Source of the DNA: Mycoemilia scoparia
Taxonomy: Eukaryota; Kickxellomycota; Kickxellomycetes; Kickxellales; Kickxellaceae
Assembly: GCA_027575805.1 (NCBI GenBank)
Contig: JANBPU010000246.1
Coordinates: forward strand, 1-23,863
DNA length: 23,863 nucleotides
Direction of reading: 5' to 3'
The notes below the pieces were generated by a model. It was not told where the DNA came from. It made no database searches and saw only the letters and a list, made by a program, of their open reading frames with translations. Below, piece after piece: positions 2,958 through 23,522 of this stretch (positions are counted from its first letter, which is position 1; every line of letters starts with the position of its first letter). Position numbers and translations under genes: made by a program.

Positions 2958-3179
2958 AGTTATTTGGGAATTCTTGTTATGCCCAGCATTTATTTTATTT
3001 ATGTATGATATTATTGCTATAGTTATCGATCGGTGTATGTTTCTTTTTTTAAAAATCTTTAGTGTTGATTTTTATCAGACATTGTTGTTTCACAATCCAA
3101 AAAGCTTATAAAACTAACTATTTTCAAGTTGGTATATTGAATCTGTTTAGATAATTTATAAACCGAGTGAATACAAAAT

Positions 3180-3323
3180 TGGCCAAAGTTCACAAAGCCT
3201 TAGACAAAAATGATGGATCCCCAGGAGTTGTATATGAAAAGGCTGATGACTAGGCCAAAACCAGAGGGCCCACGACTATTTCTGCCAGCCACATGTCTCA
3301 TCACTAGTCAAATTTCATCATAG
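3180..3323 (+). repeat. Dispersed repeat family, copy A
   Basis: Begins GGCCAAAGTTCACAAAGCC and ends near ATCACTAGTCAAATTTC. Clearly similar sequences occur at 7892-8036 (minus strand), 10511-10640 and 21692-21834. Shared landmarks are GGCCAAAGTTC, a GGATCCCC/GGGTCCCC block, TATATGAAA/CATATGGAA, AGGCCAAAA and the CACTAGT-type end. It forms the outer edge of the left arm of the inverted duplication. No coding capacity and no convincing pol III boxes were seen. Confidence 0.6.
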
Positions 3324-3355
3324 GTGTAATGCATAATCCATGGTTGTTGTCAAAT

Positions 3356-3361
3356 TTTATT
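3356..3361 (-). terminator. Poly(A) signal AATAAA of the left pair gene
   Basis: AATAAA on the minus strand about 140 bases beyond the stop codon. It matches the AATAAA at 7851-7856 after the right copy, position for position. Confidence 0.45.
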
Positions 3362-3501
3362 GTGCAAATAAAAAAGAAAATGCTAACGAACCATTATAAA
3401 TTCCAAAAGAATAAATGGATGACTCCATTTCCATGATAGTTATAGGTGATCATATATATTGTACTTTCTTTTCTATAATGCAAAACATATTTGCTGAAAA
3501 C

Positions 3502-4395
3502 TTAATTAGAACGACCCTGAGAAGATATGAACATACGATTAAGGGATGATGCCAAAGTAGAATATACATAATCAATGACTTCAACGCCATATCCACCATT
3601 ACCACTACTGCTACCAAGATTGAGTTTAATCATATCATCAAAAGACTTGGCCTTCCAATCATCAAAATGCACCTTGAATGAACTTTCAAAATGGTCCTTG
3701 AATTGGGTGAACAACAATGCTTTATCACCTTGTTTAACAAGAGGAAAAAGATTTCTGATAGGTCTTGACATTCGAGCAAGATCCCCATTGATAAAGTCAA
3801 AAATGTCCTCCTTGATCAACTTTCTTGCATTGTCATCAATACCTGGGCTTTCATGGTTATCGGTATTACCAAATATGCCATGATAACCATGGATATCATA
3901 AATGCACTGACGGAATCCATATAAATATAGATCAATTGCCTTGACCAAAGCACCTGTTTCTGATTCAGTTCCTTCACCACTGATTATGTCAACAAGTTTA
4001 CTGAAAATGTTTCCAGCTTGAATATTGAGATAATCCAAATGTGTCACTGGAATCATCGTGTTGCCACTTTTGATGTAAGTCTTATATTTGCCATCACCAT
4101 AATATCTCTCAACAAATGGCAGAGCACCATCCTTATGGAATTTCAAGAAAGCAGATTCAAGATGCTTTGCAGAAACATTTCCTTGCTTGAATTGATCACA
4201 AAGATTCATGATGTACTCACGCTTTCTTTCCATATGCTTTTTCAGAGCTGCCTTAAGATTGTCAAGAGTATCCATATCAATACCATGCTTGTTGAAATCG
4301 GTGAGTTCTAGGATATCCTCAATAGAACCCAAAAACTCTATGATTGCTTTACAGCATATTCTAGAATCAGTGTCTATAAATGCTGATAGGTTCAT
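3502..4395 (-). CDS. Rapidly diverging orphan protein, left copy
   Basis: Intronless gene of 297 residues starting at ATG 4395 (MNLSAFIDTD); the open frame continues upstream, but without an ATG and into the TATA region. The protein is soluble-looking, mostly helical and charged, with no signal peptide and no membrane segment. I recognise no known domain. Compared with the right copy at 6820-7710 it is about 73% identical. Residues 261-294 (GSSSGNGGYG to SSQG) are identical even at the nucleotide level, and the block around 186-205 (IDDNARKLIKEDIFDFINGD) is invariant. The rest is densely substituted, and nearly all substitutions change the amino acid. A TATATA core at 4528-4533, equivalent to the TATA box of the right copy, lies about 135 bp upstream. 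Function unknown. The pattern suggests a protein under diversifying selection. Confidence 0.75.
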   Translation of the reverse strand: MNLSAFIDTDSRICCKAIIEFLGSIEDILELTDFNKHGIDMDTLDNLKAALKKHMERKREYIMNLCDQFKQGNVSAKHLESAFLKFHKDGALPFVERYYGDGKYKTYIKSGNTMIPVTHLDYLNIQAGNIFSKLVDIISGEGTESETGALVKAIDLYLYGFRQCIYDIHGYHGIFGNTDNHESPGIDDNARKLIKEDIFDFINGDLARMSRPIRNLFPLVKQGDKALLFTQFKDHFESSFKVHFDDWKAKSFDDMIKLNLGSSSGNGGYGVEVIDYVYSTLASSLNRMFISSQGRSN

Positions 4396-4527
4396 GGCTG
4401 GAAGAACAGAGGTAGGGCTGTATAGATGAGTGTTGTGTCTTGGATGTGTGGCTGGATTGGAGGGAGGGATTGAAAGTGTTGAAGGATGATAAAGCAGAAA
4501 ATTCAGTATGGCAAACCACAATGGCTG

Positions 4528-4533
4528 TATATA
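4528..4533 (-). promoter_or_regulatory. TATA-like element of the left pair gene
   Basis: The minus strand reads CTGTATATACAG here, whereas the right copy has CTATATATAAAG at the same distance from the ATG. The left promoter therefore carries an altered, palindromic TATA element, which could mean different expression of the two copies. Confidence 0.5.
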
Positions 4534-4968
4534 CAGTTGAAAAAGTATGGCAGTGAATAAAAAACACAATTTTTGTAAACAAAATTATTTCCTAAACATT
4601 TCAAATTTCAGCAACTTTCTTTTCCACAATGATGGTGATATTCATTACAAAAAATATTGTTAGAAAAAATCAAAGACAAAATTTGACATGTATGTAAACA
4701 TGTGTATTGTAAAAACATTTTTGTATTATTTATCAACCAAATCACCTGTTATTTATTCAAAAAGATTGCAAAAATGTTTAATTTGTCAATAACATAGTTT
4801 TCGAACCAAAAAAGTTCAATAACTTGAAAGTCATCCTTTGACATGTAGAATATCAAAAAATACCTGGAATAATAAAAAATATTGTTGCAATAACAAGATT
4901 TACTAAAAAGTAAAAATATTATCTTCTGCTTGCTTATCAGGCAAGGAGTAATTAGAGCTGGCCTGACT

Positions 4969-5382
4969 ATATGGATCATAAATTTTGAAGAGTAAAAGTT
5001 TACTAGTAAAACTGGACACTCATTTGGCTATTGTCAATCTATAGGATTGGCTGCAATAAACTGCCAAGTTAAACCTTTAAAGTAGTAATAATTCTTAGTA
5101 GAAATATATATATCTAATTAAATCATTTCAACCTAAAGTTTATTAGAAAACAATTAGTAAAAGAATAGTATTAGATATAAAAGATAAAAGAAAAACTATA
5201 TATTATTCCTAATGTTCCAAACATATATCCTCAGGGTTTATTGTTTGGAACATTCAGAACCCTTGGAGTATTCTGATGATTCAGAATAGTCCAAATCAAA
5301 TAATGATTAGGCTAGTGATTATATCACAGCCTATCAACCCCTATAACCATTGGTCACCAAAATGTACCCTTCAAAAATTATT
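4969..5382. mobile_element. MITE-like element 1 (terminal inverted repeats)
   Basis: The left end ATGGATCATAAATTTTGAAG and the right end ACCCTTCAAAAATTAT are inverted matches of each other (reverse complement of the right end: ATAATTTTTGAAGGGT). Element 2 next door has the same ends in about 100 bp, so this one is either a longer member or has been enlarged by internal insertion. It contains the 12-bp palindrome at 5211-5254. No transposase is encoded. Confidence 0.45.
5211..5254. repeat. Perfect 12-bp inverted repeat with 20-bp loop
   Basis: AATGTTCCAAAC at 5211-5222 and its exact reverse complement GTTTGGAACATT at 5243-5254. It could form a stem-loop or be the ends of a tiny insertion. It lies inside MITE-like element 1. 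Confidence 0.7.
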
Positions 5383-5396
5383 ACTAATATACTCAT

Positions 5397-5520
5397 ACAT
5401 ATGGGTGATAAATTTTGAAGAGTGAAAGTTTACTAGTACAACTGGATATCCATTTAGCTGTGATTGATACTATAATCATCTGTCACCAAAATTTACCCTT
5501 CAAAAATTATGATCCATATG
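5397..5520. mobile_element. MITE-like element 2 (terminal inverted repeats)
   Basis: A compact element with ends GTGATAAATTTTGAAGAGTG (left) and ACCCTTCAAAAATTATGATC (right), which are imperfect inverted copies over about 22 bp. CATATGG is present just outside or at both ends. The interior (GCTGTGAT, ATAATCAT, GTCACCAAAA) is shared with the element at 12449-12552. Non-coding. Confidence 0.55.
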
Positions 5521-5754
5521 GTTGTCACAAATGATTTGTTCAGGATAGGAGAGATTTGAATTTAGTGTTAAAGAATTGCTTGGGATAACTTATATAAAGA
5601 TATAAATAATTTTTACTTTGTTAAATCCTTTTAACTACAACTTTATTTAAATAAAATAATAGTATAATTATATAAAGGTAAAAAAATGAGAGTGATAATC
5701 TCAAAATCAATTATAAAACTATTAATAAAGAAAATAATAAAAATAAGATCATTA

Positions 5755-5880
5755 TGATTCAGGGTGATCCTGAATCATTCTAATCTGTCCTGATCAATTA
5801 CTGGGTATTATAAAAAGGGATAAGTGATCCCATTAATTCTTGTCCAGAATCATTCAGGATGATTCTGAACTGTTATATGT
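5755..5880. repeat. Inverted-repeat cluster with GATTCAGG motifs
   Basis: Contains two short perfect palindromic structures, GATTCAGG GTGAT CCTGAATC at the left and CAGAATCAT TCAGG ATGATTCTG at the right. Related GATCC/ATTCT motifs recur at 6062-6110. It resembles another small non-autonomous element, but I cannot define exact ends or a target-site duplication. Confidence 0.35.
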
Positions 5881-6340
5881 GGGTGTGAATAGTCACAGCC
5901 CAACATATAGGTTAAAATTTAAAATTTATAATGTAGAGGGTAGACATTTTTATCATTTCCTCATAAAAGTATGATTATATAAAAGGTAATGAAGATAAGA
6001 AAAAACTCTTCATTAATGAAACTAACCTAATAAAAGAAGCATAAGGGCTGAGATCCTTACATTAAGATTCTAAGTGATCCAGGATCATTCTAGATGACCC
6101 AGTTTCATTTTGGTTTATTTGGTATGGATCATATTGGCCATGGCCTAAAAATAATATTTTCTATTTAAATTTATTTGTTCTATACTTATGGGTTAATCAT
6201 GTAATGGTAGTTGTAATTCTAGGAATCATCCTATTTAATTTGGTAAATACAAATTTTAGTGTATGTGGCATATAGCTACCTCCCTAGGAGTAATAAAATG
6301 CTTAATCAATCTATTATAGAAACCATCCCTAATAATATCA

Positions 6341-6472
6341 TTTTAGTATCATTATAATATTATTTTAGTATCATTGTAATATCATTTTAGTATCATTATA
6401 ATATTATTTTAGTATCATTGTAATATCATTTTAGTATCATTATAATATCATTTTAGTATCATTTTTACTAAA
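6341..6472 (+). repeat. 22-bp minisatellite, six units, with 44-bp higher order
   Basis: The unit start TTTTAGTATCATT recurs at 6341, 6363, 6385, 6407, 6429 and 6451, exactly 22 bases apart. Unit halves alternate between ATTATAATATTA and ATTGTAATATCA in units 1-4, so a 44-bp dimer has been amplified. The last unit diverges into ATTTTTACTAAAG. Inverted matches (ATGATACTAAAA) lie just beyond, near 6547. Confidence 0.85.
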
Positions 6473-6676
6473 GATAATATCTTGGTACTATCAGCCCTTT
6501 TTTAAAAATATTTGAGAATGGGTAGATAGTATCATGACAGTATCATGATACTAAAATTATTCTACTAAAAATGTATGTACCAGTATACTATAATACTAGC
6601 TGACAAAAGTTCTGATGTAGAAAACAATTTTGTTTACAAAAATTATGTTTTTTATTCATTGCCATACTTTTTCAAC

Positions 6677-6686
6677 TATATATAAA
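6677..6686 (+). promoter_or_regulatory. TATA box of the right pair gene
   Basis: TATATATAAA lies about 135 bp upstream of ATG 6820. It is a stronger match to a canonical TATA box than the equivalent site in the left arm. Confidence 0.6.
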
Positions 6687-6819
6687 GCCATTGTGGTTTG
6701 CCATACTGAATATTTTTCTTTATTATCCTTCAACACTTTCAATCCCACCCACCCATCCACCAACCACACATCCAAGACACAACACTCATCTATACAGCCC
6801 TACCATTGTTCTTCCAGCC

Positions 6820-7710
6820 ATGGACTTATCAAAGTTTACAGAAGCTAATTCCAGATTATGCTGTGAAGCAATCATAGAGCTTTTGGGTTCTATTGAGGAT
6901 ATCCTAGAAGATACCCAGTTCAACAAGCAGGGTATTGATATGGATACTCTTGAAAAATTTAAGGCAGCTCTGAAAAAGCATATGGAAAGAAAGTGTGAGT
7001 ACATCATGAATCATTGTGATTTATTCAGCCAAGGAAATGTTTCTGCAGAGCATAAATTTGCTTTCTTGAACTTCTGTAAGCATATTGTTCTGCCATTTGT
7101 TGAGAAACATTATGGTGATGGCAAATATAAGATTTACATCAAAAGTGGCAACATGATGGTTCCAGTGGAACCTTTGGATTTTCTCAATAAACTAGCTGAA
7201 AAAATTTCCAGTATCTTTGATGAGATATTCAGAGATGAAGGAACTGAATCAGAAAAAGTTGCTTTGGTCAAGGAAATTAAGCTATATTTATATGGATTCT
7301 GTCAGTGCATTAATGGCATCTACAATTATCATGAGGAATTTGGTCAAACCGGAAACCATGAAAGCCCAGATATTGATGACAATGCAAGAAAGTTGATCAA
7401 GGAGGACATTTTTGACTTTATCAATGGGGATCTTATTCAAATGTCCCAGTCTATCAAAGCCCTTTTTCTTCTTGTTCAACAAGGTGATAAAGAATTGTTG
7501 TTCACCCAATTCAAGGATCACTTTGAAAGTTCATTCAAGGTGCGTTTTGGTGATGGGGAGGCTGAGTCTTTTGATGATGTGATTAAATTCAATCCTGGTA
7601 GCAGTAGTGGTAATGGTGGATATGGCGTTGAAGTCATTGATTATGTATATTCTACTTTGGCATCATCCCTTAATCGTATGTTCATATCTTCTCAGGGTGG
7701 TTCTAATTAA
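6820..7710 (+). CDS. Rapidly diverging orphan protein, right copy
   Basis: Intronless gene of 296 residues starting at ATG 6820 (MDLSKFTEAN), one codon shorter than the left copy. The ATG is aligned exactly with that of the left copy and the frame upstream has no other ATG. Predominantly helical and charged, cytosolic by appearance, no recognised domain. The middle region (residues about 117-183 of the alignment) is the most divergent. The Gly/Ser hinge and C-terminal helix (GSSSGNGGYG followed by VEVIDYVYSTLASSLNRMF) are unchanged. Nearly every codon difference from the left copy is non-synonymous. An AATAAA follows at 7851. Function unknown. Such a pattern is known from recognition, effector and conflict proteins, but nothing here names the partner. 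Confidence 0.78.
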   Translation: MDLSKFTEANSRLCCEAIIELLGSIEDILEDTQFNKQGIDMDTLEKFKAALKKHMERKCEYIMNHCDLFSQGNVSAEHKFAFLNFCKHIVLPFVEKHYGDGKYKIYIKSGNMMVPVEPLDFLNKLAEKISSIFDEIFRDEGTESEKVALVKEIKLYLYGFCQCINGIYNYHEEFGQTGNHESPDIDDNARKLIKEDIFDFINGDLIQMSQSIKALFLLVQQGDKELLFTQFKDHFESSFKVRFGDGEAESFDDVIKFNPGSSSGNGGYGVEVIDYVYSTLASSLNRMFISSQGGSN

Positions 7711-7850
7711 GTTTTCGGCAAATATGTTTTGCATTATAGAAAAGAAAGTACAATATATATGACCACGTATAACTGTCATGGAAATGGAATCATCCATTTA
7801 TTCTTTTGGAATTTATAATGGTTCGTTAGCATTTTCTTTTTTATTTGCAC

Positions 7851-7856
7851 AATAAA
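7851..7856 (+). terminator. Poly(A) signal AATAAA of the right pair gene
   Basis: AATAAA about 140 bases after the stop codon, conserved in the left arm. Confidence 0.45.
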
Positions 7857-7891
7857 GCTTGAAAACAATCTGTGGATTTTTTATTATATTT

Positions 7892-8036
7892 ATGATGAAA
7901 TTTGACTAGTGATGAGACATGTGGCGGGCAGAAATAGGCATGTGTCCTCATAATATTTTGGTCCACAACCAGTCTTTTCATATACAACTCCCGGGGATCC
8001 ATCATTTTTGTCTATGGCCTTGAGAACTTTGGCCAA
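7892..8036 (-). repeat. Dispersed repeat family, copy B
   Basis: Reads on the minus strand from GGCCAAAGTTCTCAAGGCC to CACTAGTCAAATTTCATCAT. It is the partner of copy A at the opposite outer end of the inverted duplication, with several substitutions in its middle third. Confidence 0.6.
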
Positions 8037-8044
8037 TTTTATGT

Positions 8045-10904: not shown

Positions 10905-11035
10905 TCCCCCCTTCCCCATTTTTCTTTAAAAATCCAAACGCCAATCTATACATTACATATTACACATTTGCACTTATTCACGCAATTTGACTCCAGTAGC
11001 AACAGATAAGGTTGTTACCAGAAAAGACTTCAAAA

Positions 11036-12061
11036 ATGGCGGACTCTTCACCAGATGGTCTTGCTTCGATTGAGCTCCTGGTTGACCAAATTTTCCAGCA
11101 CTCGCTCTACAGAATCAACATCATTGGCGATCCCCAAGAAACTTTAAATTTCGGGTCTCGACTTTATGTCATCAAATATACAAAAATCAACAATATGTTG
11201 TTTGAACTTAATTATGATCTTGAAGAGCTCTTGAGCAAATCCTCTTCATCTTCTTGTTCTTCTTGTTCTTCTTTTTCTTGTTCCTCTTCTTGTTTGTCTT
11301 CTACAACCACAGCCACTACCGCCGCCGGCATCATCAACAACAACAAGAACATGAGCAGCAGCAGCAGTAGTAGTAGCGAGGATGGCAATGACGAAGGAAT
11401 CTCAGTTGAATCCATCCAGGATTTTGTAAACAACAAGCTCAAACAAAAGGCAATTTCATTTGCCCAATCTTGTTTGGAAGTGGCCGAAACCAAGCTTTCA
11501 GTATACTCCAAGAGTTTATCTGAATTTCCTTGGAAAGATACAGTAATGACCCAAAAGGAATATGAAGAAAAGGTTGCTCCAATCAACCCATCTGAACTTG
11601 TTGACGAATTGAAAGAGTTTATCGAGGTGTTGAGAAGAACTGGTCCAGAAGATGGTGAGAATGAAAAAGGCTGCAGGAATGGTGATGGTGTTATCCATAA
11701 CGACACAACTACCACTACCACTACCACATCTGCTGCTACAACAGCTGTTGGCAATGATTCGACAAACATAAAGAATTTGTCTTCATTTATTGCTCCCGCA
11801 ATCTATGTTGGATTCAGAGTTGTTTGTGCAATCTTTATCCAATCGGTGTTCTTTCATCGAGATGTTCGCTATTCCAGACTCCAATTCCTCTCCTCATCAC
11901 ACGATGATCAGAATGATGAATCAACCATTGCCACCATCGATAATGATGGTGATGATGACGATGATGGAGAAAAAGATTTGGAAATCAGTCTCCAGAGATT
12001 TTGTCAAAAAAATCCCAAAGTTGATATGAGTTCTGAATGGACTTATCTTGACACAAACTGA
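11036..12061 (+). CDS. Hypothetical protein with Ser- and Thr-rich inserts (possible Mis14/Nsl1-like)
   Basis: Intronless 341-residue protein from ATG 11036, chosen because the longer frame has no upstream ATG. A globular helical N-terminus (about 9-68) is followed by a Ser/Cys/Thr/Asn low-complexity insert (about 69-113), a helical segment (about 122-202, SIQDFVNNKLKQKAISFAQ to EFIEVLRRTGP), a Thr-rich insert (about 223-232), a short hydrophobic stretch (about 250-271) and an acidic Asp-rich tail (about 298-312). The segment ending in ELVDELKEFIEVLRRTGP vaguely resembles the C-terminal part of the fungal kinetochore subunit Mis14/Nsl1, but this rests on memory of a loose pattern and is weak. 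No catalytic motif is visible. AATAAA follows at about 12200. Real gene: confident. Identity: not. Confidence 0.7.
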   Translation: MADSSPDGLASIELLVDQIFQHSLYRINIIGDPQETLNFGSRLYVIKYTKINNMLFELNYDLEELLSKSSSSSCSSCSSFSCSSSCLSSTTTATTAAGIINNNKNMSSSSSSSSEDGNDEGISVESIQDFVNNKLKQKAISFAQSCLEVAETKLSVYSKSLSEFPWKDTVMTQKEYEEKVAPINPSELVDELKEFIEVLRRTGPEDGENEKGCRNGDGVIHNDTTTTTTTTSAATTAVGNDSTNIKNLSSFIAPAIYVGFRVVCAIFIQSVFFHRDVRYSRLQFLSSSHDDQNDESTIATIDNDGDDDDDGEKDLEISLQRFCQKNPKVDMSSEWTYLDTN

Positions 12062-12908: not shown

Positions 12909-15900
12909 TCATTGTGCCACTGAAGAAGCAGTAGTAGCCGCAGCAACAGCAGCGGTAACAGCTTCATCGAATTTGACTCCAATACTTTGAGCTGACACAA
13001 TAACATTCTGCGAAAAGTTCCTCAAATCCTTTTCAGTTGCATAGTGTAGCCAAATATGCCCAAATTCCTTTACCAATGTTTTGAGCCCTTTGAGATATCC
13101 TCGATCTGGTCCTGGACATTGACTATTTAATTTACAACGTGGCTTATTGTCTACTGGAACTTCACCAGATGTTGAAAAGGGATGCAGTAGTTTTGTTGAA
13201 TGGTCGCGGTTTTGCTCGTCACAACTGCTGCTACTGCTGCTACTTATGTCATCGGGATTAATTGACGACCATGAATTTGGGAACTGTGACGATGTTTCCA
13301 GTATACTTGTTGTTGTTGTTCCCATACGAGAAGGGGCTGATGATCCAGATTCACTTATATCGCTGGCATTATTATTATTATTATTGGCTGCTGATGACGA
13401 CTCTGATGAAGCTGTAGATAACTGACGCTCACGGGAAGTGTTAAAGTGATTGCACACATCTGGCATTACCAGCGTTGGTTCGGCATAAGAGTCAGGGTCG
13501 ACAACATAGGTACACTTTACAAAATCAATGACACGAAGCTTTATCCCATTGGACATTGGTTTGGGTCTTTGTGGTGACTCTGGGCCATTGCCATAATTTT
13601 CACCAGAAGACGACGAACGGTGGTTATTGTATTGTTGCGAATGGTGAGGAGGACGAGCGCTTGTTGTAGAAATGTTTGGGAAAGACAACCCCGATGACGA
13701 TGACGATGAGGATGATGAATGATCAGGAGTTGCGATTCCATCATAGACCAACAAAAGACTGCTTCCATAAAACCTGAACCCATGCATATCCTTGACAATC
13801 CTGTACAGCTCACAAAGCTTGCAAATGAGCCTTGGAATATACTCAACATACAAGTGATCCCCATTATCCAAAAACTCGAGTAGACACTGTCTAAACAAGG
13901 AAGGGTTCATGGTACGACCATAATATTTATCTTGGAATAAATATTGCTGGCGACTGGCCTTGAACACCTGCAATCCACACATACGAACACCCAATTCTCG
14001 ACTGGTTGTGACCGCACACTTTATGGTCTGAGAAACCACTTTTTCTGGGACTGCATTGATACCGTGTTGGCGTGTCCCCATCTTGAGATCAAGGATCGAT
14101 GGCCGCTGTATCGAAGATGTCAAATCTTTCATCAAAATAAATTGATGCGTGCTACCTGAAACTGCATCGTCATGCGTAGGCATTCTCTTCGTGCATTTTG
14201 ACTTCCATAGATCATCGAACGTATCATTTGAATGCCGCCTGGCCCGGTTTTTTATTTTCAAGTTTCCTCTGCCATAGCCACTACTGCCGCTGCTGCTGCC
14301 CTTTCTTGCTGACTGTGCGTGGTGGTGATCTTGCACTTCACCACCGCTGCCATCGTTGGTTGATCCGGATACTAAGATCTCAGGGATGTTTGATTCTGCT
14401 GTTGCTGTGGTCGCTGTTGAAGTCTGTGACACTGGCTTTGTTTCTGTATTTTTGCTGTTGTTACTGAAATCGGCATCGCTGGTAGCAGTAAATCCTGAAC
14501 CCGATTTCGGTGGTAATGATGATTGCGGTGGTCTATTCATTGGTAATTTTGGGAATGGAATATCGCCTCGAATACGTTGCTGGTTATAATGACGGTGTCT
14601 GTGTTTGACCATTTCCATATTTATTCCACTAATGCCTGGTGCGGGCATGGATCCAGCAATTGAACCCACCATTGCTGCATTCATCGCGTGACCATTTGCA
14701 GTGTGAGAAAGTTTGCTTTTAGTGGTCACATCTACAGCCTCAATTGCCATATCACTACCATTTGCATTATTTAAAAGGTTATTATGACTGTGGTGGTTGC
14801 TACCATTTTTATCGGTTCCGATGCTATTGGCGGTGGTAGTATTAGCTCTATTATCTTGATTATCAGAAGACATTTCAGATATCCCCGAGATCAAGGTGCT
14901 ATTGTTGGAGTTGATTGTATAATTATCCCGATAAGCTGTGAATTCCTCACCAGTATTTTCCTCATCATCCTTGTTGTTTTTTGCTCCCGTGCCAGCAACA
15001 GAACTGATGTTATCAGAGGTAGCGGCGTCAGTAGCAGCAGCTACAGCGGCCTGATTCAAATGTGCAGATGAATGCCTGCGCCTGAGTGATTTTTGTTGGG
15101 CCTTTCTCTGAGCCCTTTGTCGTGCACGGATTTTTAAGGACAGGGGCGTCAATGCATCTTTGATGATCTCCTCTTGCATCTTGCGCCATGCCTCACAGAG
15201 GGGAATTTGGTGCAATCCATCATCATCATCATCATCACCAACGTAAACGCCGTTATCATTGCTTTTTGTTGTCGACGACCGCAGATCATTATTACCATTG
15301 GTACGATGTAGTTCTAGTTGTTTACAAATAGAAGTGGGCAATATGTGGCGGTTTTGTTGAAGTACAACCTCAGGAATCGGGTCTCCGCCTATTTCGGGAT
15401 TTTCGCGATATGTCACATTGACTACACCAAGATATTCGGGCAAAAAACTTCTAAGTCTCGGGTGAAGAGCTGCAACGCTCTCATAAAATTGCAGTTCGCG
15501 CTTATTAAGTGGTTTGCATATAGCCCTGCCGGAAAATTTTAGAAATGGTGTATGACCTCCTACAATGTTTGTAAATGGGGTCAGCTGAAATGACGATGGG
15601 GTCTGCAATTGGTGGTCTTCTTGGTAATATGAATCATCGCTTGATAGGCTGTCATCGCTGCTACTATTGCCGCCACTATAATTATTATTGTAATTATTAC
15701 CGCTGCCATATTCTATACCGCTATGACCATTATTGTCATATTGATTAGCACTGTAGGTCCCTACTATTGCATCATTATCATCACCTCCACCAAGAACGCC
15801 TTTATTTTCATCTAGCTCATCGGCAGCTAGATACCCATTATTTTGAGCTTCGTATTTATCATCGCCACATGCTTTGGAGCCACCGTCTCCTCCACAAGGT

Positions 15901-16232
15901 GGCGAAGAGACACCTGTGTTGGTTGAGGAAGTAATGGTGGTGGTGGCGTCGTCGTTTGTCTTGTTGGGAATATCCAGCCAAATTCCAGGTGGGTCCTCCA
16001 GCTTTTCATGCGAGCGACTGCGGCGCGGATATATATATATAGGATGCGATGGAAGAGACGTTGAAATAAAAGTAGTGTTTTTAGAAGTGGTGGGTTTTGG
16101 CTTAGGTATGTTTTTTGGTATGGCAGAAGAGGAAGAAGGTGCGTTTATGGTTTTTGATTTACGAGTATAAAAGTCCGAGGGGGGAGAAGAAGAAGGAGAG
16201 GTAGGTTCTAATAGAGTATGGTAAGGTTGCAT
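12909..16232 (-). CDS. KCS1: Inositol hexakisphosphate kinase (Kcs1-type)
   Basis: Intronless protein of 1107 residues from ATG 16232 (MQPYHTLLEP); the frame extends upstream but without an ATG. It belongs to the inositol polyphosphate kinase family, which phosphorylates IP6 to 5-IP7 and affects phosphate homeostasis and vacuole function in yeasts. Visible motifs are the N-lobe HTPFLKF (227-233) and FYESV, the family signature PSILDLKMG at 711-719 with D715 and K717, SSLLLVYDG at 824-832, and IDF at 902-904 with the metal-binding D903, then GYLKGLKTLVKEF near the C-terminus. The order matches fungal Kcs1, and the length is close to that of yeast Kcs1. The catalytic parts are separated by very large disordered inserts, one of about 430 residues between N-lobe and signature, rich in Asn, Ser, Thr, Ala and Asp, and one between SSLL and IDF. 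A TATA element lies about 80 bp upstream. Confidence 0.93.
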   Translation of the reverse strand: MQPYHTLLEPTSPSSSPPSDFYTRKSKTINAPSSSSAIPKNIPKPKPTTSKNTTFISTSLPSHPIYIYPRRSRSHEKLEDPPGIWLDIPNKTNDDATTTITSSTNTGVSSPPCGGDGGSKACGDDKYEAQNNGYLAADELDENKGVLGGGDDNDAIVGTYSANQYDNNGHSGIEYGSGNNYNNNYSGGNSSSDDSLSSDDSYYQEDHQLQTPSSFQLTPFTNIVGGHTPFLKFSGRAICKPLNKRELQFYESVAALHPRLRSFLPEYLGVVNVTYRENPEIGGDPIPEVVLQQNRHILPTSICKQLELHRTNGNNDLRSSTTKSNDNGVYVGDDDDDDGLHQIPLCEAWRKMQEEIIKDALTPLSLKIRARQRAQRKAQQKSLRRRHSSAHLNQAAVAAATDAATSDNISSVAGTGAKNNKDDEENTGEEFTAYRDNYTINSNNSTLISGISEMSSDNQDNRANTTTANSIGTDKNGSNHHSHNNLLNNANGSDMAIEAVDVTTKSKLSHTANGHAMNAAMVGSIAGSMPAPGISGINMEMVKHRHRHYNQQRIRGDIPFPKLPMNRPPQSSLPPKSGSGFTATSDADFSNNSKNTETKPVSQTSTATTATAESNIPEILVSGSTNDGSGGEVQDHHHAQSARKGSSSGSSGYGRGNLKIKNRARRHSNDTFDDLWKSKCTKRMPTHDDAVSGSTHQFILMKDLTSSIQRPSILDLKMGTRQHGINAVPEKVVSQTIKCAVTTSRELGVRMCGLQVFKASRQQYLFQDKYYGRTMNPSLFRQCLLEFLDNGDHLYVEYIPRLICKLCELYRIVKDMHGFRFYGSSLLLVYDGIATPDHSSSSSSSSSGLSFPNISTTSARPPHHSQQYNNHRSSSSGENYGNGPESPQRPKPMSNGIKLRVIDFVKCTYVVDPDSYAEPTLVMPDVCNHFNTSRERQLSTASSESSSAANNNNNNASDISESGSSAPSRMGTTTTSILETSSQFPNSWSSINPDDISSSSSSSCDEQNRDHSTKLLHPFSTSGEVPVDNKPRCKLNSQCPGPDRGYLKGLKTLVKEFGHIWLHYATEKDLRNFSQNVIVSAQSIGVKFDEAVTAAVAAATTASSVAQ

Positions 16233-16310
16233 AGGTAACAGCACAAAAGCATCACACACACAAGCAAAGACAAATGACGTGTGGTGGTGATGACTCAAAA
16301 GATAAACAAG

Positions 16311-19532: not shown

Positions 19533-20258
19533 CTATTGCTGGTTGTTGCTATTATTACCATTAAAGGTAGGCAATTCAAGGTTCTTGTCAGCTCTGGCTT
19601 CAGCCCAATCACCCAACGGCCCAAGTTTAAACAACTTTCCAGTTTTAGCATTCTTCCAGGCCTTAATCATACACACAAGCATTAAACAGAACCCAACAAC
19701 ACCAAGCAACCAGTTGACAAACCTAATCCAAAAGAACGCCAGCCATCCAAGAGTCATGATTACTTGGAATCCAAGTGACTGGTATGCGTGGAATCTAACA
19801 TATCGATCACGTTTAACCAACAATATAATCACAAGCGCTCCAAAAAATCCGATAAAATACGAAAGTGGTGCCAAGAAACTGGATGGAACTGATACTGTTG
19901 AAGATGGTGCACGTTGTTGTTCTTGTTGCTGCTGCTGCTGGTTATAATTATTTGCAAATTCTTGATAACTTTGTCGTTGTTCTTGGTAAAAGTTTCGGAA
20001 AGATGTCACGATACCTTGAACCAATCTTTCTCCAGATGTACCACCGCCTTCTTGGTGGTGGGATGACGACGATGCAGCATTATTGTTGTTGGGGACAGAG
20101 TTTCCAATTGACTGGTAAGACGTTTGTTGATGCTGACTCTCATCTGCGCCACTGCCTTGCGAAAAGGGCTGGTTCTTGGCGTCGTATTCAGGGTTGGCCA
20201 TAAAGTTATAAGGTGGGGGTGGTGGTTGTTGTTGGTTTGGGTCTTGTTCAAAAGTCAT
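19533..20258 (-). CDS. DUF4870/Tic20-like small membrane protein
   Basis: Intronless 241-residue protein from ATG 20258 (MTFEQDPNQQ); the longer frame lacks an ATG. The N-terminal 120 residues are disordered and rich in Gln, Pro, Asn and Ser. Residues about 126-222 form the DUF4870 (Tic20-like) domain: a first hydrophobic segment (about 128-148), the conserved basic RYVRFHAYQSLGFQ (152-165), a second segment (about 166-182) and a third (about 183-200), then a lysine-rich helix and KLFKLGPLGDWAE at 208-220. This RFHAxQS pattern is typical of the family, whose members sit in cellular membranes; the molecular role in fungi is not established. The protein converges on mL49. A TATATA lies about 85 bp upstream. 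Confidence 0.8.
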   Translation of the reverse strand: MTFEQDPNQQQPPPPPYNFMANPEYDAKNQPFSQGSGADESQHQQTSYQSIGNSVPNNNNAASSSSHHQEGGGTSGERLVQGIVTSFRNFYQEQRQSYQEFANNYNQQQQQQEQQRAPSSTVSVPSSFLAPLSYFIGFFGALVIILLVKRDRYVRFHAYQSLGFQVIMTLGWLAFFWIRFVNWLLGVVGFCLMLVCMIKAWKNAKTGKLFKLGPLGDWAEARADKNLELPTFNGNNSNNQQ

Positions 20259-20340
20259 TGATTGACAATAAATAATAACCTCTTGAATTAGCAAGTGTTA
20301 CAAAAATAGACACACACGAAAAATAAGGAATAAATCGCCC

Positions 20341-22685: not shown

Positions 22686-23522
22686 CTACTGCTGTTGTTT
22701 GGGTAAGATAGTTTTAAAGTCCTTAAGTTTGGATCTAATATTCAAAACTGTATAAGTTCCCTTATACTTCTTATTCAAAGTATCATTTACCCAAGTCTCT
22801 AATTGCAAGGTAATATCATCCAAACTAATTTTTAGAGTTTCTTCTATAGCTTTCAACTTACTAATAATTTCTTTGCACAAAGCATCAACAGTAGGGTCTG
22901 GCCCAAATGTATTACACACTGAAATTAAATTTTCCAAGCTTGGGTGATCATTGGTAGACATATTGATAGAATGATTTGTGGCACTTTCCATTATGTCTTT
23001 TGGTATTTTTTTCAACTCAGCACCAAGTTTTTCCAACAATTCCTTGGCCTGTTCCAAATTACCAGGGTAGAAAAGATCCTGGTCATCATCAATGATTGGG
23101 TTAATACCAATATTAATCTGATGGCTAACAAACAAAAACACCCCTCCCTTATAAATGAGAGTAATGATTTCATGCAAGTTTTTGCCTTGATTAGTATTAA
23201 AAGCTATTTCACCTGTATGATTGCTATCATAATAGTTTTTGACAGCAGTGATGTAATGCAACCCAATTTCCTTAATTCTGTTAGCTATATAGCTAACAGT
23301 TTCAGTCTCATTTGGCAAAAGAGCATATAAATGGAGGGTCTTGTATCCCACTGTGGCACACCAATCAGCAAAGGCATTATATACAGCATTGTTAGCATTT
23401 TCTGGTCCATAAGCTAATTCTTTTGCTCTTTCAATGAGTTCATAATAACCAGCAATACATTTTTTAGTTTTTTCATTGAGGGCAGATGTTTCTTGAGGTG
23501 GTAAGTTGGTAATGCCTGACAT
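22686..23522 (-). CDS. Orphan helical protein, 278 residues
   Basis: Intronless gene from ATG 23522 (MSGITNLPPQETSALNEKT) to TAG at 22686-22688. No signal peptide or membrane segment; predicted by eye as a bundle of amphipathic helices, with a polar Gln-rich C-terminus. I recognise no family. In size, lack of introns and cytosolic helical appearance it resembles the inverted gene pair at 3502-7710, but I find no convincing alignment, so I do not call it a paralogue. A TATAAATA on the same strand lies about 105 bp upstream, and the leader is CT-rich, like that of the pair genes. It lies next to decayed coding sequence, in an accessory-looking region. Confidence 0.7.
   Translation of the reverse strand: MSGITNLPPQETSALNEKTKKCIAGYYELIERAKELAYGPENANNAVYNAFADWCATVGYKTLHLYALLPNETETVSYIANRIKEIGLHYITAVKNYYDSNHTGEIAFNTNQGKNLHEIITLIYKGGVFLFVSHQINIGINPIIDDDQDLFYPGNLEQAKELLEKLGAELKKIPKDIMESATNHSINMSTNDHPSLENLISVCNTFGPDPTVDALCKEIISKLKAIEETLKISLDDITLQLETWVNDTLNKKYKGTYTVLNIRSKLKDFKTILPKQQQ

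Follow-up and report, generated by a model that had tools for sequence, protein, structure and literature searches.

The window analyzed here, the 23,863-nucleotide contig JANBPU010000246.1 of the early-diverging fungus Mycoemilia scoparia (Kickxellales), carries a divergent (head-to-head) pair of genes whose 5' ends face each other. Copy A (3502..4395, minus strand; 297 amino acids) and copy B (6820..7710, plus strand; 296 amino acids) are single-exon open reading frames (ORFs), and each lies with its flanks in one arm of an inverted repeat (3175..4594, minus strand, and 6618..8040, plus strand) whose arms are 88% identical over 1,427 columns. An initial annotation made from the sequence alone had reported both frames at these coordinates; both are intact, and its concern that one copy might be a pseudogene was not borne out. 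As detailed below, these genes belong to a larger family with intact frames, mosaic structure and, in two subfamilies, a class of positively selected sites. All results rest on a single draft assembly from one strain (21.16 Mb in 466 contigs), and paralogs of A and B are labelled by contig (C44, C259, C84, etc.).

The family occupies 22 places on 16 contigs of this assembly. Subfamily 1 (5 places) comprises A, B, C44, C259 and C84r, subfamily 2 (5 places) comprises C84, C437, C405, C329 and C347, and the other 12 places form subfamily 3; subfamily 2 was linked to B at an E value of 7.8e-14 and subfamily 3 to A at 6.6e-5. Members of different subfamilies sit near one another on C84, C329 and C347. 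The genes of subfamilies 1 and 2 are continuous single open frames of about 276-298 amino acids, members on C26, C180 and C97 are seemingly incomplete or at contig ends, and no stop codon was detected inside the matched stretch at any of the 22 places. In an alignment of 11 diverse members, 17 columns were invariant and 15 nearly so. The protein encoded by C44 is identical to H4219_004224 of M. scoparia and the C416 protein is a 100% match to H4219_002824; a 23rd member, P0003, was found only as a deposited protein; it comes from a 5.7-kb contig, and the assembly has no near-identical place for it. Protein searches (5.77 billion proteins), which are sensitive only to relatives with shared short exact words, returned none outside M. 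scoparia, and by these comparisons the family appears to be an orphan, lineage-restricted one.

Codon alignment of A and B gave 79 replacement codons, 6 silent codons and 1 gap codon, with differences at 110 of the 888 aligned bases (41, 42 and 27 at the three codon positions); the by-eye counts of the initial annotation (79 replacement codons, about 6 silent, one codon indel and about 110 bases) were thus exact. A contrast of 6 with 79 exaggerates the effect because codons with several changes conceal silent steps, and counting steps gave 15.5 silent and 94.5 replacement changes. The NG86 method estimated a silent divergence (dS) of 0.089, a replacement divergence (dN) of 0.148 and a ratio (omega) of 1.67 (Fisher p = 0.08). 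Pairwise codon maximum likelihood (ML; GY94 type, F3x4, own code) gave dS 0.079, dN 0.163 and omega 2.06 (p = 0.015 against omega 1), and omega 2.29 (p = 0.008) for codons 1-246. The neutral silent fraction was 0.23-0.26, which agrees with about one silent change to three replacement changes, one end of the range assumed earlier, and not with the other end, one to two. Six or fewer silent codons appeared in 1 of 5,000 neutral simulations of the fitted model (mean 19.3) and in none of 5,000 begun at the actual A sequence. Among codons with a single change, 6 were silent and 58 replacement where 16.8 silent were expected (p = 0.0015, or about 0.024 after Bonferroni correction for the 16 pairs examined); B-C44 gave p = 0.022 in the same test, and the other 14 of the 16 pairs were not below 0.05.

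On both the ML estimate and the single-change codons, dN exceeded dS as had been claimed for this pair, and omega was not at or below 1. The replacement excess is real but moderate, not overwhelming as it was first described, with gene-wide omega values of 1.3-2.1. Multinucleotide mutation was rejected as the source of a false omega above 1, since A/B remained significant with single-change codons only, and the 64 transitions and 46 transversions between the copies do not suggest C-to-T hypermutation of the repeat-induced point mutation (RIP) type. The B branch carries most of the excess. Its omega was 3.0 with a single tree (p = 0.005 for the test against 1) and 2.4 when the alignment was cut into four segments, each given its own tree to allow for recombination (p = 0.0498); the doubled log-likelihood gain of a separate B ratio over one ratio was 4.56 and 2.06, respectively. 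A histone pair taken as a control was uninformative, with a single silent change and no replacement change.

The flanks of the two copies differ at 16 of 199 bases on the 5' side (8.0%), at 7 of the first 148 bp on the 3' side (4.7%), in line with the 5 of 141 counted by eye, and at 32 of 179 bases in the distal 3' flank (17.9%). The proposal that the proteins evolve faster than neighbouring non-coding DNA therefore holds for the 5' flank and the first 148 bp of the 3' flank, and not for the distal 3' flank. The dS of 0.079-0.089 is close to the 5' flank divergence of 0.085 (Jukes-Cantor), so silent sites diverge as ordinary non-coding DNA does, and dN exceeds both values. The low 3' flank, which had served as the neutral yardstick, is a poor one because of a conserved element and A/B homogenization. 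The homogenized tract covers the end of the coding sequence (CDS) and the 3' flank (3355..3616 on the minus strand for A and 7596..7857 on the plus strand for B); 37 consecutive variable columns are identical at the CDS end, a run matched in 0 of 2,000 permutations. The element, TTCRTTAGYRTTTTCTTTT, lies 111 bp past the stop of A (3372..3390, minus strand) and of B (7822..7840, plus strand), and recurs 107-113 bp past the stop of other members. Of the 10 members that subfamilies 1 and 2 have in the assembly, 8 carry it within 2 mismatches; it was not found behind C259 at this threshold, and C329 reaches the contig end. None of the six subfamily-3 genes tested had it within 3 mismatches. The case illustrates that a by-eye test of selection can be misled by a flank of low divergence when gene conversion and constraint on a 3' element combine.

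As a marker of many more family genes, TTCRTTAGYRTTTTCTTTT was rejected. Allowing at most 2 mismatches, its pattern matched 50 times and the reversed pattern 24 times, and 8 of the 50 sit behind family genes. Most of the non-family loci among the 25 read had a different dispersed repeat or no ORF. One dispersed repeat, TTCATTAGTAATTTCTTTTATTAGCAG..., unrelated to family genes, was caught by the pattern at L042-L048, L052, L053, L057, L058 and L061. Upstream of copy B, a run of an 11-bp unit (ATAATATCATT / TTAGTATCATT) occupies 6332-6474. A dispersed short repeat, about 125 bp long and with ends that are similar in both orientations, lies at 5397-5522 and 4966-5029; it was also seen at many other loci examined, e.g., just upstream of the C259 gene, and resembles a small non-autonomous element.

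Along the family genes, near-identical blocks are interspersed with others that differ by up to about 35%. A and C44 have no difference in CDS bases 203-322 and differ at 21 of 60 in bases 437-496, and C259 is near-identical to A in the first part of the CDS and differs at up to 26 of 57 bases in later blocks. The region upstream of A (4431..4792, minus strand) has a single difference from that of C44 in 362 aligned bases, a near-identity that is best read as recent exchange or duplication. The C-terminus of B is common to A and not to the C44, C259 or P0003 members. In permutations of variable columns, the identity runs of A-B, A-C44 and A-C259 in subfamily 1 and of C84-C329 in subfamily 2 were each reached in 0 of 2,000. 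The plainest case is a second head-to-head inverted pair, in subfamily 3, on C347 (4332-5210, minus strand, and 6002-6883, plus strand, of locus L028, C347:1-9000), where alike ends enclose a divergent middle: 4 of 180 bases differ from -116 to +63, 201 of 597 in the middle, and 12 of 392 from CDS base 661 into the 3' flank. A single inverted duplication drifting apart, as implied by the initial annotation, was not supported; A and B are both mosaic in structure and trade blocks with paralogs located on other contigs.

Site models (M1a against M2a) were fitted to A, B, C44 and C259 for subfamily 1 and to the 5 members of subfamily 2, with codon models in our own code that were checked by 24 simulations. 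For subfamily 1 the likelihood-ratio test (LRT) statistic was 36.1 on one tree, 17.8 with 4 segments (p = 1.3e-4) and 18.9 with 6 segments (p = 7.9e-5), and the selected class had omega of about 3 and held 39-42% of codons (segmented). For subfamily 2 it was 53.9 on one tree and 40.8 with 4 segments (p = 1.4e-9), with omega 4.1 for 27% of codons. In 24 data sets simulated from a segmented neutral model that had been fitted to subfamily 1, the top LRT was 8.79 without and 3.55 with segments, and the highest omega was 0.97. Selected sites were more polar than invariant ones in subfamily 2 (p = 0.011). Positive selection acts on a subset of codons in two subfamilies, found independently and with recombination allowed for.

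These results bear on the alternative of relaxed constraint, in which redundant copies drift neutrally with omega of about 1 and the 2.06 of A/B is sampling luck. Gene-wide omega is indeed near 1 in most pairs, and one pair could dodge stop codons by chance: 110 random changes in A introduced a mean of 2.77 stops, with none in 190 of 3,000 runs. However, M2a was better than M1a in both subfamilies with segments and 0 of 24 neutral simulations came near, no stop was present in the matched stretch of any of the 22 places, and the invariant columns among the 11 members are many. The combination of open full-length frames, many invariant residues and a gene-wide omega of about 1 is as expected when constrained and positively selected codons are mixed, and we regard relaxed constraint as unlikely.

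No Pfam family matched A or B at E ≤ 1, the 16 members compared with Pfam matched only 10 families at chance level (with no NACHT, WD40, HET or HeLo-type family among them), and PHROGs and PADLOC gave no credible match. A simple hydropathy scan of the 16 family proteins detected neither a signal-like hydrophobic N-terminal stretch (top 10-residue mean 2.12 in the first ~35 residues) nor a clear transmembrane segment (highest 19-residue mean 0.78-1.87), and the proteins are therefore likely intracellular. An AlphaFold model based on 6 sequences was all helical (predicted local distance difference test, pLDDT, 63.4; predicted template modelling score, pTM, 0.64); an earlier model based on 4 sequences was poor and contained a few short strands.

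We consider two further alternatives improbable to the same degree. The family could be killer meiotic drivers of the wtf-like poison-antidote kind, i.e., selfish genes with poison and antidote matched within a copy. The wtf genes are described as sharing species restriction, fast evolution and pervasive non-allelic gene conversion including promoters (PMC6526906), but the genes studied here are single open frames, not five or six exons, and have no clear membrane segment in the hydropathy scan. The proteins could instead be secreted effectors directed at another organism. Small proteins that are lineage-restricted and positively selected often turn out to be effectors; the same scan showed no N-terminal signal-like stretch in the 16 proteins, though, and Kickxellales are called putative saprotrophs in a review (PMC10386755). 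An assembly artefact, in which short-read stitching of paralogs created the mosaic pattern and some of the excess, is very unlikely even for a draft of 466 contigs with P0003 on a 5.7-kb contig unplaced in the assembly, since random joins or read errors would have disrupted the frames, which are open, the C44 protein is identical to H4219_004224 deposited from a contig of different size (43,130 against 39,041 bases; assembly versions may differ), omega was above 1 also in gene parts analyzed apart with their own trees, and alike ends around a divergent middle recur in the unrelated C347 pair.

On balance we favour the reading that these genes encode mostly helical intracellular proteins for recognition or conflict, and that positive selection and ectopic gene conversion have diversified them. 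The diversification itself is highly probable; the assignment to recognition or conflict factors inside the cell is tentative, an almost even call. It was also the class suggested by the initial annotation, and it fits; we infer this biochemical role because such families show lineage restriction, positive selection and gene conversion, and no enzyme signature. Under the favoured reading, the family would grow as units of 1.2-2 kb are duplicated, either dispersed or head-to-head, and ectopic gene conversion would swap blocks between members, keeping the blocks of promoter and N-terminus and of C-terminus and 3' untranslated region (UTR) alike between some copies. Positive selection would drive amino-acid replacements chiefly in the central part of the protein, and this variable part may touch a fast-changing partner. 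The partner may be a virus, a selfish element or a rival allele, and the role non-self recognition or antagonism; host defence, allorecognition and selfish drive are all candidate settings.

Several results weigh against this reading. Gene-wide omega with segments was not significantly above 1 in subfamily 1 (1.30, p = 0.089; 1.27, p = 0.12) or subfamily 2 (1.16, p = 0.23). By pairwise codon ML, 14 of 20 pairs were indistinguishable from omega 1, three were above it at p < 0.05 (A-B, B-C44 and C405-C84), and three were below it, all with C84r and with dS of 1.3-1.6. Subfamily 3 had no gene-wide excess (tested pairs 0.55, 0.57 and 1.08), the lowest value being that of the C347 pair (p = 0.002). 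Selected sites were not more polar than invariant ones in subfamily 1 (p = 0.44). The identity runs of the other three of six subfamily-1 pairs were reached in 76-144 of 2,000 permutations, and in nine of ten subfamily-2 pairs at least one of the 2,000 permutations reached the observed run. Finally, no fold match stood out, and no PDB structural neighbour rose above the helical background.

A more specific and rather doubtful extension is a cassette system for protein diversity, in which conversion keeps gene ends alike while the centre is swapped and selected, giving a strain-specific repertoire of non-self recognition or antagonist proteins. Ends kept alike between inverted or dispersed copies would thereby preserve the ability to recombine, and M. 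scoparia strains would be expected to differ in copy content and in gene middles.

Other genes of the window were also inspected. A single-exon orphan at 22686-23522 (minus strand; 278 amino acids, no Pfam match) has relatives on C461, C219 (with one TGA inside), C269, C259 and C374, and it lies close to main-family genes on C164 and C259; its membership in the same family was not supported (hhalign probability 0.2%). The ORF at 11012-12061 (plus strand; 349 amino acids, with low-complexity inserts) has a relative with 37% identity that lies about 2.4 kb upstream of the family gene on C44; this neighbourhood is thus shared by another unnamed family. An inositol polyphosphate kinase gene (12909-16298, minus strand; Pfam PF03770, E = 2.7e-43) and a gene for a DUF4870 protein (19533-20294, minus strand; E = 1.1e-6) are ordinary neighbours.

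Change under selection and the swapping of pieces are often seen in genes of self/non-self recognition or genetic conflict, and such systems are well described in Ascomycota (wtf and NWD); we found none comparable for Kickxellales in the open-licence literature searched. Of the fungal settings, non-self recognition (NWD genes) and killer meiotic drive (wtf genes) are the two that have been studied most. The 22 places with coordinates, the candidate selected residues and the two inverted pairs, in which gene conversion could be measured, offer a starting point. The wtf family of Schizosaccharomyces pombe is described as killer meiotic drivers and suppressors with five or six exons, alternative poison and antidote transcripts and predicted transmembrane proteins (PMC6526906). 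On that description, our family is like wtf in being species-restricted, in having more than 20 copies, and in its fast replacement change and non-allelic gene conversion including promoters, and unlike it in its single open frames, helical model and lack of a clear membrane segment in the hydropathy scan. No direct comparison with wtf proteins was made, and they were not among the database matches, which the protein searches returned only from M. scoparia. The NWD/HNWD family of Podospora anserina (het-D, het-E) is reported to diversify its recognition surface by concerted evolution and positive selection (PMC1805685), a combination also indicated here by permutation tests and site models. 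As reported there, NACHT and WD40 domains make up the NWD proteins, and the pieces exchanged are short repeats. Our family shows neither a Pfam domain nor an internal repeat array, and its paralogs exchange whole blocks. Likewise, no Pfam match to HET or HeLo incompatibility proteins was found in A, B or the 16 members. Positive selection combined with mosaic blocks or gene conversion is also described for mosaic gene families in general, such as Plasmodium var and rodent Esp; these are different proteins in different hosts and settings, and no relation is claimed. In evolutionary mode the family agrees with both wtf and NWD; in domain make-up or gene structure it agrees with neither.

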